From contig JAPPBX010000081.1 in the NCBI GenBank assembly GCA_026702755.1, forward strand, positions 1-64,000: a stretch of 64,000 nt of DNA. The letters run 5' to 3'. Both the position numbers and the translations under genes were made by a program. Shown piece after piece: positions 35,478 to 49,752 of the stretch (its first letter is position 1; the number at the start of each line of letters is the position of its first letter). Origin of the DNA: Candidatus Poribacteria bacterium (GTDB taxonomy: Bacteria; Poribacteria; WGA-4E; WGA-3G). The notes under the pieces are model-generated. The model did no database searches and had not been told where the DNA came from. It saw nothing but the letters and a program-made list of their open reading frames with translations.

Positions 35478-35503
35478 GGGTTTTTGCTTGGGTGTTTCTT
35501 CAA
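35478..35503. repeat. 26-bp sequence repeated inverted at 52215-52240
   Basis: The 26 bases upstream of aspS are the exact reverse complement of 52215-52240. No gene overlaps either copy; the function is unknown. Confidence 0.85.
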
Positions 35504-35545
35504 CGCTACGGAAATAAACGTCAACGCACTAACCCGTTTGACCAA

Positions 35546-35566
35546 ACCGCAAGGAAAATTAGAAAA
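35546..35566 (+). promoter_or_regulatory. Shared leader/RBS motif before aspS
   Basis: ACCGCAAGGAAAATTAGAAA, one change from the copies at 14457 and 22761, ending directly at the aspS ATG. It decides the start of aspS. Confidence 0.7.
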
Positions 35567-37594
35567 ATGTCTCAAGAAACCCAAGAAACTACATCGTCTT
35601 GTTTAAAACGAACCCATTATTGTGGTGACCTACGCTTAACCGATGCGGGAACAACCGCGCAACTCAACGGTTGGGTCAAACGTCGCCGCGATCACGGTGG
35701 GGTCATCTTCGTTGATTTACGCGACAGGACAGGCATCACACAAGTCGTTTTTGACCCGCAGATTGAGGAAAAAGCGCACGCCCTCGCCGATGCTGTTAGA
35801 AGTGAATTTGTGTTGAACGTCAGCGGCACCGTCCGTGAACGCGATCCGGGCGAATTGCTCTTCCACGCAGAGGCAGCGTATCAGGCAGAACTCGCCGATG
35901 GTTCCCTTTCCCCCGCGTTCCGAGCCTTGTTTTCGGATGTTGACGCTAAATACACCCTCTCCGAAGAAATTGAGGTCGCAACCCGAGTCGCTGGCGCGCG
36001 ATGGCTGCTCACCGATGTCGAAAATAATCGGACATATCATATTGAGAACAAGGAAAAAGTCCTCAGCATCTACCAAGGCACAGTCAATCCAGAACTTGAT
36101 ACGGGTGAGATCGAACTTGCTGTGGATTCTCTGCAGATTCTGAATACTGCCAAAACACCGCCGTTCCCGGTTGAAGACGATATTGACGTGGCGGAAGACA
36201 TTCGGATGCGCTATCGGTTCATTGATCTGCGTCGTCCCGAGATGCAAAAAACTTTGGCGATGCGGCATCAGGCAGCACTTGCAGCGCGTAACTACATGAA
36301 CGAGCAGGGTTTCCTTGAAATTGAGACACCCATTTTGATGAACAGCACGCCCGAAGGGGCACGTGATGTCCTCGTGCCGAGTCGTCATTATCCGGGTAGG
36401 TTCTATGCGCTCCCGCAATCACCGCAGCAGTTTAAGCAGATTCTCATGATGAGCGGCGTTGATCGGTATTTCCAGATCGCGCGGTGCTTCCGTGATGAGG
36501 ACACCCGTGCCGACAGACAGTTAGAGTTCACGCAGCTTGACATTGAGATGTCATTCGCAGGGATAGACGATGTACTTGAGGTGACCGAGGGGTTGATGAA
36601 ACGAATATTTGAAGAGGCGGGTGGCATTCCTGTCCAGACACCTTTCCTACGCCTACCCTATCATGAATCAATGGCACGTTTCGGAAACGACAAACCCGAT
36701 ACGCGGTTCGGCATGGAGCTTACCGACCTCTCAGATGTTATGGCGGATTGTGATTTCCAGGTGTTCACACGCACCTTGGAAAGCGGCGGAGAGGTTAAAG
36801 CCATCGCTGCACCGGGTGGAGCAGACTTTTCACGCAAAGACATCGACGATCTGACCGAGTTTGTCGCCACTTACCGAGCAAAAGGTTTGGCATGGGTCAA
36901 GGTCACCACAGATGGCTTCTCGTCCGGTATCGTTAAGTTCTTCACAACAGAGCAACTTGAAACAGCGCAAGAGAGAACGGGTGCGCAGCCGGGGGATATT
37001 ATGTTCTTTGTTGCTGACAGACCGAAAGTCGTTGCTGATGCACTTGGCAATCTCCGTCTCCATCTCGGACGAAAACTCAACCTTATTGACGAAACCCAAT
37101 ACAATTTCTTATGGATTGTCGATTATCCGCTGTTTGAATGGAACGAAGATGAAAATCGGTACGAACCTTTCCACCATCTGTTCACAGGCGCGACGGAAGA
37201 AACTTTACCGCTGTTAGAAACAGATCCGGGGAAGGTCCAGAGCCAACACTACGATCTCGTATGTAACGGGTATGAAATCTGTAGCGGAAGCGTCAGGATT
37301 CACCAATGGGATATCCAACAAAAGATCTTCAACATTCTGGACATCACCCCGGAAGAGGTCGAAAGTCGGTTTGGCTATTTCATAGAGGCGTTGGCGTATG
37401 GTACACCTCCGCATGCCGGCATCGCACCCGGACTTGACCGGATGGTGATGTTGATGCGAAACGAGGAAAACATCCGTGAAGTCATCGCATTCCCGAAATC
37501 GCAACAGGGGCTTTGCCCGCTCACGCATGCCCCGTCCGTTGTAACGGATGCCCAGTTAGAAGAACTCTCCATCCACGTTGATGTAGACGGCTAA
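35567..37594 (+). CDS. aspS: Aspartyl-tRNA synthetase with inserted segment
   Basis: A 675-residue class II aminoacyl-tRNA synthetase charging tRNA-Asp. The anticodon-binding OB fold (THYCGDLRLTDAGTTAQLNGWV, GGVIFVDLRDRTGITQVVF), motif 2 (FRDEDTRADRQLEFTQLDIEMSF) and motif 3 (GLDRMVMLMR) are intact, as is the bacterial insertion domain. Typical bacterial AspRS is about 590 residues. The excess is an insertion of about 75 residues at about 96-171, between VSGTVRERDPG and TVNPELDTGEIEL inside the OB fold. The ATG at 35567 follows the shared leader motif; an earlier in-frame start would add 25 atypical residues. Confidence 0.95.
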   Translation: MSQETQETTSSCLKRTHYCGDLRLTDAGTTAQLNGWVKRRRDHGGVIFVDLRDRTGITQVVFDPQIEEKAHALADAVRSEFVLNVSGTVRERDPGELLFHAEAAYQAELADGSLSPAFRALFSDVDAKYTLSEEIEVATRVAGARWLLTDVENNRTYHIENKEKVLSIYQGTVNPELDTGEIELAVDSLQILNTAKTPPFPVEDDIDVAEDIRMRYRFIDLRRPEMQKTLAMRHQAALAARNYMNEQGFLEIETPILMNSTPEGARDVLVPSRHYPGRFYALPQSPQQFKQILMMSGVDRYFQIARCFRDEDTRADRQLEFTQLDIEMSFAGIDDVLEVTEGLMKRIFEEAGGIPVQTPFLRLPYHESMARFGNDKPDTRFGMELTDLSDVMADCDFQVFTRTLESGGEVKAIAAPGGADFSRKDIDDLTEFVATYRAKGLAWVKVTTDGFSSGIVKFFTTEQLETAQERTGAQPGDIMFFVADRPKVVADALGNLRLHLGRKLNLIDETQYNFLWIVDYPLFEWNEDENRYEPFHHLFTGATEETLPLLETDPGKVQSQHYDLVCNGYEICSGSVRIHQWDIQQKIFNILDITPEEVESRFGYFIEALAYGTPPHAGIAPGLDRMVMLMRNEENIREVIAFPKSQQGLCPLTHAPSVVTDAQLEELSIHVDVDG

Positions 37595-42843: not shown

Positions 42844-42902
42844 CTCTGATATAAGTTGGATGCGTGTGCTGGAGCATGGGTGTCCCAAGAGGAGAAGGCA
42901 TA

Positions 42903-43949
42903 TTGATAGAACGCGATCTTCAGGAGTTGTCAAATGTATCGAGCCACCAATTCCCTGATAGGAGTGCGAAATGGTTCCTGCGTCAGCGGGAATACCTCGA
43001 GGCGTTACTGAGCCTGTTTGGTAAGGAGCTCGCCGATGCTCTTGACTTCGGGCGGATCGTGCAGGTGAATAGAAGTTTCATCTCCGATGACCTTCGGACG
43101 CAAGAATCGGATATGGTATTCCGGGTGCCGTTTCGGTCTCCGACGCAAACGGGTGGGGAAGTCATCGTCTATCTTCTCATAGAGCACCAATCCAGGGTGG
43201 ACCGGTCTATGAGTTTGCGGTTGCTGTCTTACATGGTTCAGGTATGGATGGAGGAGCGGCGACAGTGGACAGAGGCAAAGCAACCCCAGGCAGAGTGGCG
43301 GTTGACTCCCATCATCCCGATTGTCTTTTACACGGGGAGCAGAGAGTGGCGGGCTCCGCTCTCTCTGACTGCCCTCATGGACAGCCCAGAAATCCTCACA
43401 CGCTTCATCCCGACCTTCGACACCTTGCTCCTTGATGTCAAAGCCACAGACCCTGACGAACTGACACAGACAGGGCAACCTTTCGGATGGTTATTGACCG
43501 TCTTGCAACAAGAACACACTGAAGACCCGGACGTAATGCGACAAACACTCCTTGACGCTTTAGAGGGACTCAGGGACCTCCACACACACGACGCTGAAGC
43601 GTATCAGCGCGCAATTTTGTATATCTTCCTTCTTATCCTACACCGCAGATCCGAAGAAGAACAGAAAGACTTATTCCGTATCCTCACACAAGAGCATACA
43701 CAAAACATGGAGATTGTAGGCATGGCAGAATCTATCATTGAAATCAGCGAAAAACGCGGACTCCAACAAGGCATAGAGCAAGGAGAGATCCAAGGCAAAC
43801 AAGAGGCCCTGCTGAAGTTGCTGCAGCACCGGTTTCCGGGCGTTCCCGATACGGTGATCACGCGGGTGCGTGCCCTCCGTAACCTTGTTGAACTCGATGC
43901 GCTCTTTGAGAAAAGTCTGACAGCGAAAAGCCTTGAGGATATCCAGTAG
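42903..43949 (+). CDS. Rpn/PD-(D/E)XK transposase-like nuclease with DUF4351-type tail
   Basis: A 348-residue protein of the Rpn (recombination-promoting nuclease) type. Core: PDRSAKWFLRQREYLEALLSLF, LRTQESDMVFRVPF, GEVIVYLLIEHQSRVDRSMSLRLLSYMVQVW, then RLTPIIPIVFYTGSREW. The D and E-H-Q segments match the nuclease fold. The C-terminus GKQEALLKLLQHRFPGVPD and ELDALFEKSLTAKSLEDI resembles DUF4351. The start is most likely TTG 42903, because AGGAG lies 8 bases upstream; GTG 42864 and ATG 42876 in the same frame are alternatives. Family role: DNA cleavage that can promote recombination; these genes move often. Confidence 0.85.
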   Translation: MIERDLQELSNVSSHQFPDRSAKWFLRQREYLEALLSLFGKELADALDFGRIVQVNRSFISDDLRTQESDMVFRVPFRSPTQTGGEVIVYLLIEHQSRVDRSMSLRLLSYMVQVWMEERRQWTEAKQPQAEWRLTPIIPIVFYTGSREWRAPLSLTALMDSPEILTRFIPTFDTLLLDVKATDPDELTQTGQPFGWLLTVLQQEHTEDPDVMRQTLLDALEGLRDLHTHDAEAYQRAILYIFLLILHRRSEEEQKDLFRILTQEHTQNMEIVGMAESIIEISEKRGLQQGIEQGEIQGKQEALLKLLQHRFPGVPDTVITRVRALRNLVELDALFEKSLTAKSLEDIQ

Positions 43950-44168: not shown

Positions 44169-45758
44169 ATGAACGAAAACGAAAAGAAACCAAAAGTAAG
44201 TCTCGGCCTACTTTACGGAATTATCATTGCCATTGTTGCTGGTGCACTTATTGGAGGTTATGCCCCAGATTATGCAATCCACACAACAATCCTCGGTGAG
44301 ATATTCTTAAACCTATTGAAGATGATAGTAGTACCGCTTGTTGTCTTGTCCATGATAGTCGGGATAACAAATTTAGGCGACATCCGTAACATCGGTTCCA
44401 TCGGCGGACGGACTGTGCTGTACTACATGGCAACAACCGCGCTCTCCGTTCTCGTTGGGATAATTCTCGTGAACATCATCTCACCGGGGAAGGGGTTATC
44501 ACAAGGCGAAGAGCGTGCCGATCTGAGTTACACACTCTCTGGTGCTGAGATGCTCACGCTTGAAATGAGTGGCGAATTCAATCGGACCTATAACAATAAA
44601 TATGTGATTACCCTCACGGACCAGGACATCCGTGGTGAAGTCGAATCCATTGACGGAACAACAGTCACAGTAAAATCGTGGCAACCCTTCAGGGATGCCC
44701 GTTACGTCACCACAGACGATGGGGAACGCTTGTTATTCTCTGACGGTCAGCTCGTCCGGATAGAACCCGAAAGTACCGGTGAAGGCATTGACATCAGCTT
44801 GCCGATCGCCACAAGAATGTCCGACAAAACCGAGCGGACGATGGGCAACACCATCAAAGAGGTGTTCCTCGGCAACGAGAAGACCGGTAAAGAGGGGATG
44901 ATCCCCTCAAACGTCTTCAAAGCGATGGTGCACACCGACATTCTGCCCTTAATCTTCTTCTCGCTCCTTATCGGTGCGGCTTTATCCATGCTTGGTGATG
45001 TTGGCAAACCCGTCATCTCCGTGATTTCTGGATTAAATGAGGCGGTGATGAAACTCGTCCATTGGATAATGTATGTCGCGCCTGTAGGTATTTTCGGCTT
45101 AATCGCAGGCAGGATCGGCGAGGCGAAGGGGTTCGCAGGTTTCTGGCCCGAACTTATCGCCGTCGGTAAGTATAGTGCGACAGTTGTGTTAGGACTTGGT
45201 GTACACGCTGTTATCATTTTACCGATACTCTTACTGTTCCTCGGACGTAGAAATCCGCTCAACTATTTCAAAGGTATGGCAACGGCTTTACTCAACGCCT
45301 TTTCGACAGCGAGTTCAAGTGCGACTTTACCCCTAACGATGGAAGGTGTTGAGAACCAGAACGGTGTCTCCAGACGGACCTCCAGTTTTGTACTTCCGTT
45401 GGGCGCAACCATCAATATGGATGGCACCGCACTCTATGAGGCAGTCGCTGTCATGTTCATCGCACAGGTCTATGCAATTTCCATGGATCCAGCACAACAA
45501 ATAGTTGTCGTGTTGACCGCGACTTTGGCAGCTATCGGCGCAGCAGGGATACCGGAAGCAGGGCTTGTTACAATGGTTATCGTGCTCAGAGCCGTCGATC
45601 TCCCGGTTGAGGGGATAACGCTGATTCTCTCCATTGATTGGTTACTCGACCGATTCCGTACCGCAGTTAACGTCTGGGGCGACAGCATCGGCGCAGGCGT
45701 AATTGAGACGTATGAATCCAGAGACAGCGATACAACCGAAGCCCCAGCTACCACATAG
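44169..45758 (+). CDS. Dicarboxylate/amino acid:cation symporter (SDF/DAACS family)
   Basis: A 529-residue inner membrane transporter. The signature serine-rich motif STASSSATLPLTMEG and the NMDGTALYEAVAVMFIAQ segment (ion and substrate site) are intact, and N-terminal helices LLKMIVVPLVVLSMIVGITNLG are typical. Predicted substrate: glutamate, aspartate or C4-dicarboxylates with Na+ or H+. Between TM3 and TM4 there is an unusually long soluble loop of about 110 residues (about 112-225, beta-rich: KYVITLTDQDIRGEVESIDG) not present in typical members (about 430 residues). A strong ribosome binding site (agaaggaga) precedes ATG 44169. Confidence 0.9.
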   Translation: MNENEKKPKVSLGLLYGIIIAIVAGALIGGYAPDYAIHTTILGEIFLNLLKMIVVPLVVLSMIVGITNLGDIRNIGSIGGRTVLYYMATTALSVLVGIILVNIISPGKGLSQGEERADLSYTLSGAEMLTLEMSGEFNRTYNNKYVITLTDQDIRGEVESIDGTTVTVKSWQPFRDARYVTTDDGERLLFSDGQLVRIEPESTGEGIDISLPIATRMSDKTERTMGNTIKEVFLGNEKTGKEGMIPSNVFKAMVHTDILPLIFFSLLIGAALSMLGDVGKPVISVISGLNEAVMKLVHWIMYVAPVGIFGLIAGRIGEAKGFAGFWPELIAVGKYSATVVLGLGVHAVIILPILLLFLGRRNPLNYFKGMATALLNAFSTASSSATLPLTMEGVENQNGVSRRTSSFVLPLGATINMDGTALYEAVAVMFIAQVYAISMDPAQQIVVVLTATLAAIGAAGIPEAGLVTMVIVLRAVDLPVEGITLILSIDWLLDRFRTAVNVWGDSIGAGVIETYESRDSDTTEAPATT

Positions 45759-45902: not shown

Positions 45903-48122
45903 ATGAGCACACAAAACGAACCAAACCCACAGCAATCAGCACTCAGCGGCGCGTCAATTCTCGCGATCATCAGTGTTGGGCTCGCCGCGGGGTGGATAGC
46001 ATTCGCCTACTACAAAGGATCTTCCGCAGAGAGCAGCCGGATCCTGCTCTTACACCCGATAGTGCCGATACTGTTGATCGTATTGCTTATCCGTGTTTAC
46101 CGCTGGATCGACATCAGAAGCATCGTCATTCTGGAAATACTGATGATTGCTATGTGGATTTTTATACGTTTGTTAGGTGTGCTAACGCCTTTCATTTTAG
46201 GGTTCGGATTTGCTTATATCTTCAGGTTTCTCTGGAATTCTTTCCCCTTCAAAGCGCGCTATCAACGCGGAATCGCAACTGTACTGATTGTGATTGTCTG
46301 TGGCGGGCTGCTCTTCTACACTGGAAAACAGGTTAGCAAGCAAGCAAGCCAAATGGGGAGTGGATTGCTGAAGTTTTATTATGAAACTGCGCTGCCGCAT
46401 GCCATCGGTGAAACCTTTGAGGCAGTTGCTATCAGTACAGGGGAAATAACCTCGCCCCTACATGAGGACGAGATTACAGAAAGAAATGAACAAGCGACAG
46501 AAACGTTCTATCTGGGGACGAATCATGGGGTTTATGAAATTCAGCAGGACGTGGTAGACAAGCTTCCTCGTATCGGTATCACGAACGGTGCGCTCCTCGG
46601 TAAGTCAATTCAGACGCTTACGACAGGTGGAGATGTTATCTACGCCGGTACCCAAAGTGGGTTGTATAGGTATTATAAAGCACTTCCTGTTGCGGACAAT
46701 GAGACAATCAAGGGTGCCGCGAGCACTCAAGAGATCACACCGAAAATCTGGCACAAAGTAGAAGGCACCCCCTTTGATACTGTTTCTGTCCAAGCTACCA
46801 ACATTCCAATTTGGGATAACACCCAAATCTACATCGGAACCCAAAAAGGACTTTACAATAGTAAAGATTCAGGACAAACGTGGCGTGAAGTTGCCCCTGA
46901 AATTTATGCCGAAAGATCCATCGTCAGTATCATCTCTGTTGTGGATAGAAACGGTGATAGAATAACGTATGTCGCCAGTACGGATGGGGTTACCCCGCCC
47001 CTACAAAACGCAGAGCAAACGATTCCTCCACCTACAGTCACAGCAGTGCATTGGTATCTGGAAGACTCTGCTCTCGAATGGGAACCACTTCCCTCAATAA
47101 CAGAAGAAATTTATGCCCTTGCAGATGTAGATGGCACCTCACAGGTGTCCGATATTGAATTATACGCTGGTACCCCCAATGGCCTCTATGAATGGCATCG
47201 TCTCGGAAACGAATGGAGAAAGGCGGAAGGCGCAGAGGGGACGGCGACAATTTCGCTGTTAGCCTCGGCACCTTCCGGTGTATACGCCGGTAATGCGACT
47301 GTCGTCCGGCATCGCGCAACATCCACAGCCGGATGGAAACCCTTTGCGACATATAAAGAAGGCATCATCCACGCTTACGAGGACCAACCTATCGTTGAAC
47401 AGGTAAAATCATATTTGACGGAAAGAATACCAACAATTGCGCAAACTGGTAGCGAGGCTATCAGGGAAACGTTTCAATTCGCCGGTTCGGTCGCCTTTGG
47501 GTTCGGTGGATTTCTCGCCACAATGTTGTTCGCCTTCATCGTGTTTGTCTACGCGAGTCAGTCGTTTGATAACTATTTCCGCAGTTTCATCATGCTGGTG
47601 CCTGAACGCTATCGGGAAACTGTCAAGACCTATCTACGCGAAATTGATAAAAATCTTCAACAATTCTTAAAAGGGCAAGTCGCCGTGATTGCGATTGTGT
47701 CCGTGATTTCCTGCATCGCATACAGCATTATCGGGGTGCCGTTCGCTTTGGTTATCGGGTTGCTCGCGGGTATCTGTAATGCGATACCGACCTTTGGTCC
47801 CTTTATCGGTGGCGGTTTCGCCTTTATAGCGATGCTGATGGGACTCGCAGCTGGAGATTTCGGCTTAATTGACTTCCTTGTTCGTAGTGCTGTTGTGTTA
47901 GGTGCCATCCTCGGTATCCAGACGCTTGACAACTCGCTTATCTCTCCCAAAATCATGAGTTCTGCTGTTGATGTGGATCCATTACTGATTATGTTCGCCG
48001 TGATTGTCGGGGCAGCCGTACTCGGTTTTTGGGGGGTTTTGCTTGCAATTCCTATCATTGTTGTGATAAAATCGGTTATCGCTGTTTCCAACGACAGAGA
48101 GACAATTGGAAAACACCCGTAA
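45903..48122 (+). CDS. AI-2E/PerM-type permease with inserted beta-propeller
   Basis: A 739-residue membrane protein; typical AI-2E family members are about 350-400. N-terminal helices (residues about 19-140: LGVLTPFILGFGFAYIFRFLW) and C-terminal helices (about 525-730: FLKGQVAVIAIVSVISCIAYSIIGVPFALVIGLLAGICNAIPTFGPFIGG, LDNSLISPKIMSSAVDVDPLLIMFAVIVG) are standard. Between them, about 190-480 contains repeated blades (FYLGTNHGVYEI, IYAGTQSGLYRY, IYIGTQKGLYNSKDSGQTWREV, LYAGTPNGLYEW) of a sialidase-like propeller, probably outside the membrane. The first codons carry a heptad repeat fragment (NPQQSALSG). Transport substrate unknown. No clear ribosome binding site before ATG 45903. Confidence 0.87.
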   Translation: MSTQNEPNPQQSALSGASILAIISVGLAAGWIAFAYYKGSSAESSRILLLHPIVPILLIVLLIRVYRWIDIRSIVILEILMIAMWIFIRLLGVLTPFILGFGFAYIFRFLWNSFPFKARYQRGIATVLIVIVCGGLLFYTGKQVSKQASQMGSGLLKFYYETALPHAIGETFEAVAISTGEITSPLHEDEITERNEQATETFYLGTNHGVYEIQQDVVDKLPRIGITNGALLGKSIQTLTTGGDVIYAGTQSGLYRYYKALPVADNETIKGAASTQEITPKIWHKVEGTPFDTVSVQATNIPIWDNTQIYIGTQKGLYNSKDSGQTWREVAPEIYAERSIVSIISVVDRNGDRITYVASTDGVTPPLQNAEQTIPPPTVTAVHWYLEDSALEWEPLPSITEEIYALADVDGTSQVSDIELYAGTPNGLYEWHRLGNEWRKAEGAEGTATISLLASAPSGVYAGNATVVRHRATSTAGWKPFATYKEGIIHAYEDQPIVEQVKSYLTERIPTIAQTGSEAIRETFQFAGSVAFGFGGFLATMLFAFIVFVYASQSFDNYFRSFIMLVPERYRETVKTYLREIDKNLQQFLKGQVAVIAIVSVISCIAYSIIGVPFALVIGLLAGICNAIPTFGPFIGGGFAFIAMLMGLAAGDFGLIDFLVRSAVVLGAILGIQTLDNSLISPKIMSSAVDVDPLLIMFAVIVGAAVLGFWGVLLAIPIIVVIKSVIAVSNDRETIGKHP
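45933..45955. repeat. Heptad repeat fragment, copy 6, in coding sequence
   Basis: Two units (AATCAGC, ACTCAGC) near the start of the AI-2E gene, encoding QQSALS. Short, so less certain than the other copies. Confidence 0.5.
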
Positions 48123-48336: not shown

Positions 48337-49752
48337 ATGGAAACCGGACACCCCATTGTTGCGATTGTCGGCAGACCGAATGTCGGGAAATCATCGCTCT
48401 TCAATCGAATCGCTGGAAATAGCCAGCAGCCAGCAGCCGTCAGCGATCAACAAGAAAATCTCTTTGCTGAAAGCGGAAAACCGAAGGTTTCCAAAGGTTT
48501 CCGTTCCTCGCGTAGATTCGCCGTTGTCCATGATACTCCGGGCGTAACGCGCGATAGGAACTATGCAGATGTAGAATGGGCGGATCGTCCGTTTACTATT
48601 GTTGATACGGGTGGTTTGGACGTTGATCCGGATGATCGACTTATTGATAACGTTCAATTACAGGTAGATGCCGCTTTGACTGAAGCGAGCCTTGTGCTTT
48701 TCGTTGTTGACGCGCGAACCGGTATCATGCCACACGACCTAATCGTCGCTGACAAACTCAGAGCTGCTGACAAACCGATTTGTCTCGTCGTCAACAAAGT
48801 AGATAGCGAGCAATTTCGCAACGAAGCCGCCGAGTTTTATAGGCTTGGTCTGGAAGAACCGGTGTGGACCTCCTGTGTCCAAAACGATGGGATCCGAGAA
48901 CTGCTTGATTATATCGTGGAAACCCTACCAGAGACTGACGAAACAGTCCGCAACGCACCTGCAGCAATAAAAATTGCGATTGTCGGTAGACCGAATGTCG
49001 GAAAATCCTCCCTTATCAATAACCTCTTGGGTGAAGAACGGATGATTGTTGATGACCGACCCGGCACGACGCGTGATGCAGTGAATATACGCATCGTTCA
49101 CGATAACATCCCTTTTGAAGTTGTCGACACAGCAGGCATGCGACGTAAATCGGTTATCAACGATGAACTTGAATCTGTCACTGTGAAACGTGCAATCCAC
49201 AGTATTCGCCAAAGCGATGTCGCCGTACTCGTGCTGGATGTAACCCAAGATGTCGCACAGCAGGATAAGACGATCGCCAATTTCATTGAACGGCAGGGGA
49301 AAGCCTCGATTTTGGTCATGAATAAATGGGATCTCATCGTCGACAAGGATAACACGACACACCCAGAGTTTATGGATACAATAGATGCCCAACTCCCACG
49401 ACTCGGCTATGTCCCACGCGTTTTTGTTTCTGCGCTGACGGGGCAACGCGTTACCCAAATATTAGAAACTGCCCTTGAAGTTTACCGTGAGTATTGCACC
49501 CATATCCCGACACCAGCACTCAACGACCTGCTTCTGGAGTTACGGAACGCGCACCCGCCTCCGCGCGTTAAGGGAGCGCGACCCGCCCTCAAATACATCA
49601 CGCAAGTGGAGACAAAACCGCCGACTTTCCTAATCTTTGGACGAAACGTTCATCGCGTGCAGCAGCCGTATGAATCATATCTTATCAACAATATTCGGGA
49701 AGAATTTGGATTTCACGGCACACCGATACGGATCTTTTATCGTAGGTCATAA
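48337..49752 (+). CDS. der: Ribosome-associating GTPase Der (EngA) with inserted peptide
   Basis: A 471-residue double GTPase needed for 50S ribosome assembly. First G domain: GRPNVGKSS (12-20), DTPGVTRDRNY, VDTGGLD and NKVD. Second: VGRPNVGKSSLINNL, DRPGTTRDAVN, VDTAGMRRKS and NKWD. The KH-like C-terminal domain ends with HVHRVQQPYESYLINNIREEFGFHGTPI-type sequence. Between FNRIAGN and RFAVVHDTPGVTRD, where Der normally has about five residues, about 30 extra residues (28-58) are encoded by heptad repeat copy 8, next to switch I of GTPase 1. Degenerate shared leader motif lies upstream. Confidence 0.95.
   Translation: METGHPIVAIVGRPNVGKSSLFNRIAGNSQQPAAVSDQQENLFAESGKPKVSKGFRSSRRFAVVHDTPGVTRDRNYADVEWADRPFTIVDTGGLDVDPDDRLIDNVQLQVDAALTEASLVLFVVDARTGIMPHDLIVADKLRAADKPICLVVNKVDSEQFRNEAAEFYRLGLEEPVWTSCVQNDGIRELLDYIVETLPETDETVRNAPAAIKIAIVGRPNVGKSSLINNLLGEERMIVDDRPGTTRDAVNIRIVHDNIPFEVVDTAGMRRKSVINDELESVTVKRAIHSIRQSDVAVLVLDVTQDVAQQDKTIANFIERQGKASILVMNKWDLIVDKDNTTHPEFMDTIDAQLPRLGYVPRVFVSALTGQRVTQILETALEVYREYCTHIPTPALNDLLLELRNAHPPPRVKGARPALKYITQVETKPPTFLIFGRNVHRVQQPYESYLINNIREEFGFHGTPIRIFYRRS
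48418..48508. repeat. Heptad repeat element, copy 8, inside der
   Basis: AGCCAGC, AGCCAGC, CGTCAGC, GATCAAC units, then AAGAAAATCTC and an inverted GGTTTCC region. It is in frame and encodes AAVSDQQENLFA, close to the peptide from copy 4. Confidence 0.85.

Follow-up and report, generated by a model that had tools for sequence, protein, structure and literature searches.

Most bacteria and archaea have proteins of the AI-2E family (PF01594; TqsA/YdgG, PDB 7nb6; YtvI; CxpE), of which few have a known substrate. The family plan consists of three transmembrane helices (TMs), a soluble loop and a more conserved second block of TMs. In TqsA, for which the PDB entry 7nb6 holds five chains, about 45 residues (90–134) lie between TM3 and TM4. 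One described group, UPF0118, comprises Na+(Li+)/H+ antiporters with the signature E179(D)-R182(K)-K215-Q217-D251-R292-R293-E296-K298-S307 (PMC7221264). Beta-propellers of the BNR/Asp-box and Reg_prop-like types (GH74, YCF48, sortilin, BT4663/BT4673), on the other hand, stand alone or are joined to a kinase. A search of openly accessible literature found no paper on a fusion of an AI-2E protein with a propeller or on propellers of the Poribacteria, a sponge-associated, uncultured phylum of symbionts.

The locus described here belongs to Candidatus Poribacteria, to a MAG judging by its near-identical relatives, and lies in a window (the whole stretch of DNA that was analysed) of 64,000 nucleotides. 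The ORF at 45903–48122 (+) is one intact gene of 739 amino acids, which runs from ATG to TAA with no internal break. AI-2E_transport was matched by Pfam in two stretches of the protein (E = 1.4e-40, 139.9 bits against a cut-off of 34.3), which bears out the family given in the original prediction, and between these stretches no Pfam profile rose above its cut-off. Hydropathy and an HMM alignment to TqsA revealed the TM plan of the family. The first membrane block (aa 74–141, 46122–46325 (+), family TM1–TM3) aligns to TqsA 11–89, and the second (aa 495–728, 47385–48086 (+), TM4–TM8) aligns mostly to TqsA 135–328. Since the flanks align in this way, the inserted domain is placed in the soluble loop between family TM3 and TM4, in agreement with the predicted position between two membrane blocks. 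The protein differs from TqsA in that about 310 residues occupy this loop, and in that it has two extra N-terminal TM helices (aa 17–65, 45951–46097 (+)), which are also present in the Poribacteria orthologues that lack the propeller. A long helix (aa 119–167, 46257–46403 (+)), made up of TM3 and an extension and predicted by AlphaFold2 with low to medium confidence, leads into the insert.

The protein shares with the UPF0118 antiporters the family fold, the Lys and Gln residues in motif B, and the Pro-Lys pair in motif D (K590, Q592, P682 and K683 here). However, the antiporter signature is incomplete: in a by-eye alignment to the printed motif consensus, D251, R292, R293 and E296 are replaced by N626, N677, S678 and S681, and membership of the Na+/H+ antiporter subgroup is therefore disfavoured.

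Five TMs precede the insert by helix count. The basic loops are found at residues 112–122 and 549–592 and at the C-terminus, whereas the segment 142–529 is acidic (28 K/R versus 49 D/E). On the basis of helix parity and loop charges, both termini are predicted to be cytoplasmic and the insert to lie outside the inner membrane. The charge signal is weak in the propeller-less orthologues, the loops of which are nearly neutral. A PhoA terminus assay of a UPF0118 family member placed a terminus in the cytoplasm, in agreement with the predicted topology (PMC7221264).

The insert itself (aa 172–483, 46416–47351 (+)) had been predicted to be a beta-propeller, and structure prediction and structural comparison both support this. 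When aa 166–494 were modelled in isolation with AlphaFold2 (pTM 0.80, mean pLDDT 77), about six four-stranded blades were obtained, located approximately, according to the strand list, at aa 172–225, 236–285, 296–328, 338–394, 405–440 and 452–483, so that the predicted structure is a closed ring of such blades. The full protein was modelled with 16 homologues (mean pLDDT 60, pTM 0.50); here the insert was again confident and the membrane part poor. The membrane part was set aside because of this low confidence, and the geometry of propeller and permease in the full-length model is poorly determined and not established. In a Foldseek search of the insert against the PDB, nearly all of the 50 matches listed were beta-propeller proteins (E values down to 4e-8, probability 1.00). 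The highest TM-scores among these belonged to six-bladed designed, kelch and WD40 propellers, and the periplasmic sensor propellers BT4663/BT4673, GH74 enzymes and YCF48 were listed as well. Sequence profiles of the insert matched BNR and GH74 proteins and one Reg_prop-type sensor in the PDB. The curated Pfam propeller families, including Sortilin-Vps10, all stayed below threshold, the best reaching 12.7 bits against 33.

The blade motif that had been quoted, IYAGTQSGLYRY, is present at aa 246–257, and two more close copies, IYIGTQKGLYNS and LYAGTPNGLYEW, begin at aa 309 and 420. These three copies compare with a mean of 0.001 in 2000 shuffles of the same protein, for a pattern that was composed after the sequence had been seen. 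A motif scan for the BNR/Asp-box S/T-x-D-x-G-x-T-W found one canonical copy, SKDSGQTW (aa 320–327, 46860–46883 (+)), in blade 3; its S320, D322 and W327 are kept in at least 16 of 18 propeller-bearing sequences. The conserved residues of the propeller are chiefly structural (G-T-x-x-G-L-Y, W and the Asp-box), and no conserved pocket for a ligand is obvious. Between families that share 40–50% identity overall, the positions of blades, Asp-box and Trp are kept. The domain thus resembles BNR/Asp-box and Reg_prop-like propellers in its fold, blade motif, single canonical Asp-box and predicted extracytoplasmic site; it differs from them in being six-bladed, in falling below all Pfam cut-offs and in residing inside a transporter. 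Taken together, it is confirmed that the gene encodes an AI-2E family transporter that carries a complete six-bladed beta-propeller in the TM3–TM4 loop, and the earlier doubt as to whether the insert has a propeller fold at all does not stand.

The same fusion was looked for in 85 Poribacteria genomes, as the original prediction had proposed. A strong match was found in 72 of these, and the propeller form, in the same single ORF, in 62 (counted by hand from the survey). Six genomes (G037, G040, G042, G052, G053, G061) have an orthologue without the propeller, and four of the 72 carry different inserts of smaller size. Five single-contig assemblies (G005, G009, G021, G028, G082) have the propeller form, and the named records OX639992.1 and OY282374.1 hold the same continuous frame. 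When genome contigs were searched with one protein query, the matches listed were from Poribacteria only.

The gene order is the same wherever the flanks are long enough: a sodium:dicarboxylate (SDF) symporter upstream, identified by a profile match (44169–45758 (+)), the permease, and the gene of the GTPase Der/EngA downstream (48337–49752 (+)). The propeller is missing in the orthologues at L051, L054, L055 and L059; L051 and L054 share the order SDF symporter, permease, der, and der is also located 3' of L059. The propeller-less proteins align up to about residue 173 and again from about residue 492, with 15–32 residues in between. Six sister genomes have orthologues of this kind, which makes the propeller a clean insertion of a domain into an orthologous locus. 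Other neighbours of the locus are a 2-hydroxyacid dehydrogenase and a purine/uracil-type permease. The Pfam match of the SDF symporter is likewise in two stretches, the second starting at aa 243 of 529 (profile position 120), which suggests an insert of about 100 aa in an early loop and so another enlarged-loop transporter in this genome. Just upstream of the locus, 42864–43949 encodes a Transposase_31/YhgA-like protein with a weak DUF4351 C-terminus.

A tree was built from the permease columns only. In this tree, the propeller-less proteins of families f7, f8 and f10 fall outside, and that of f3, in which the permease is kept and the propeller is missing, lies close to propeller-bearing f4. 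The best tree requires two changes, with f3 nested near f4g4. However, a single propeller clade was not rejected by the AU test (p-AU 0.219), so two independent origins are not needed. A single gain, whether or not f3 lost the domain afterwards, would be enough to explain the distribution, and the best explanation appears to be that the propeller was acquired in an ancestor of several Poribacteria families and inherited across them. In seven pairwise comparisons, of which the distant pairs are near dS saturation, dN/dS was 0.07–0.11 for the permease and 0.14–0.24 for the propeller. Purifying selection acts on both parts, and the rate of evolution in the propeller is about double that in the permease.

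Relatives of the propeller were also found in the window's own genome. After the gene itself, a profile of the insert matched mostly proteins of about 1000 aa (E 8e-6 to 1e-3) and one BNR-type protein of 324 aa. The long relatives that were inspected consist of an ECF sigma factor (Sigma70_r2, r4), one TM and a large BNR-type propeller region; loci of this architecture are C82:121556 (L081), C17:145245 (L083), C112:18775 (L085) and C82:107948 (L084). These proteins could possibly act as one-component transmembrane sigma sensors. Similar open frames of about 1000 aa gave weak matches in many genomes of the same genus. A profile–profile comparison of the insert with the propeller of a sigma protein (hhalign; probability 97.4, E 1e-11, 243 columns) supports homology of the two. 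Direct descent of the insert from the ECF-sigma propellers is not shown by this, as propeller repeats match one another easily. The sigma factor must be cytoplasmic and the propeller follows the TM, hence the propeller of the ECF proteins should be extracytoplasmic. In the proteins at L081, L083 and L085, the homologous region is thus likewise predicted outside the membrane, but it is larger and C-terminal to a single TM and a cytoplasmic sigma factor, whereas here it is nested in a permease. The lineage appears to use this type of propeller as the outside module of membrane-bound regulators.

The TM3–TM4 loop of the family is a recurrent insertion site, as different inserts occur there in other Poribacteria AI-2E proteins. 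Six of these (L057, L060, L062, L063, L064, L066) have inserts of 76–153 aa in the same loop. The original prediction had called a large sensor or binding domain at this position unusual for the family. With respect to size this holds against sister-family orthologues and E. coli TqsA, where only a short loop is present; the sensing or binding part of the claim is probable at most, as set out below.

A repeated in-frame coding element of about 62–74 aa was encountered in the course of the orthologue comparison; it sits in the loop of orthologues from f2 and f4g8 and in that of distantly related AI-2E paralogues. Its consensus (~62 aa) is about QSDLDNG.ISE.LRQ.FE.NGI.LSQN..VS.EE.GSRWLITD..NK.TYTVRKE.D.LN.Y, and no Pfam or NCBIfam model covers it. 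In a profile search of six Poribacteria genomes, 5–40 copies per genome were found in unrelated reading frames, with no internal stops; essential genes are among the hosts, which include AspRS, sigma-54, BamA, a C-terminal processing protease, SecA, NuoJ, a flagellar rod/hook protein and YibE/F. Further copies are at L050, L053, L056, L064 and L066 and at the loci L095–L114. In the window, the element lies at 35852–36073 (+) inside the AspRS ORF 35492–37594, and the AspRS matches of six other genomes skip residues 121–194, the flanking pieces directly adjoining in five. Palindromic elements of Rickettsia are also in-frame elements, and the present element may resemble them, by analogy only. 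It may be more surprising than the propeller fusion. A separate palindromic repeat family, GTAGGGGCGAG-N5-CTCGCCCCTAC, has 54 half-sites in the genome, several times in pairs with 5 bases between them. The permease gene contains two single half-sites in frame: CTCGCCCCTAC at 46451–46461 (+), in the linker before blade 1, and CCCGCCCCTAC at 46994–47004 (+), in a variable loop of blade 4. The exact 32-base palindrome pattern gave no match, and a 17-base version matched its own site alone.

As to function, the reading that we favour, at a probability of roughly 0.5, is that of an inner-membrane AI-2E transporter with an extracytoplasmic propeller that binds or senses a ligand and thereby influences transport. 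The short extracytoplasmic loop of a TqsA-like permease would have received a whole six-bladed propeller of the Asp-box type; the first strand of a closed propeller lies near the last, so the domain could fit without breaking the permease. If the protein is a pentamer as in TqsA, five propellers would form a crown on the periplasmic side. They may capture a host or cell-envelope saccharide, a peptide or a protein, and the capture could gate, load or position the transporter via the two long helices on either side of the insert. We prefer a role in sensing or binding since the closest relatives within this genome are for the most part extracytoplasmic portions of ECF-sigma proteins; together with the topology, these suggest that the propeller is probably a sensor or binder. 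A bolder version is doubtful: a pentameric secondary transporter crowned by five inserted extracytoplasmic propellers that act as its own ligand-gated receptors. Such a chain would unite sensor and permease, and would have evolved in sponge symbionts from the propeller stock that also feeds transmembrane ECF sigma factors.

The propeller could alternatively serve in docking or scaffolding to a periplasmic or outer-membrane partner, as in envelope machines, with no small ligand involved. This is possible, if rather unlikely. A structural or docking role would also fit the faster evolution of the propeller and a conservation that is chiefly structural with a variable surface, its loops tolerate large indels (L056, L050), and kelch and WD40, which are typical docking folds, are among the best Foldseek matches. 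However, no conserved gene of an envelope partner is present among the neighbours named above, and the closest sequence relatives have sensor-type architectures.

It is quite unlikely that the propeller is a tolerated and nearly neutral insertion, without a specific role, in a loop that accepts foreign coding material. The unrelated inserts in the loop of f5 and other relatives, the repeated ~62-aa element in the same place, the two in-frame half-sites and the retention of the permease in f3 would all be consistent with such tolerance. Yet the propeller is kept without stops in all 62 genomes at the dN/dS given above, and its blade, Asp-box and Trp positions persist across divergent families.

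The family name, and the fact that TqsA is the sole PDB relative in the profile search, would point to a protein that exports AI-2 and binds it, or a related signal, through the propeller. However, LuxS (PF02664) was found in none of the 85 Poribacteria genomes, whereas the controls (E. coli, B. subtilis and others) scored, so AI-2 export is very improbable and AI-2 is probably not the substrate; propellers are not known as AI-2 receptors. Finally, an assembly error that joined two genes, which the original prediction had named as a risk, is ruled out for practical purposes by the same unbroken frame at a conserved locus in dozens of independent assemblies, five of them single-contig.

Orthologues with and without the propeller at one locus provide a ready test of the role of the TM3–TM4 loop in the AI-2E fold, and the fusion shows how a whole closed domain can nest in a transporter and persist for long. 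Should its ligand prove to be a molecule of the host or the envelope, the propeller would give a way to approach the substrate in a phylum of uncultured symbionts.
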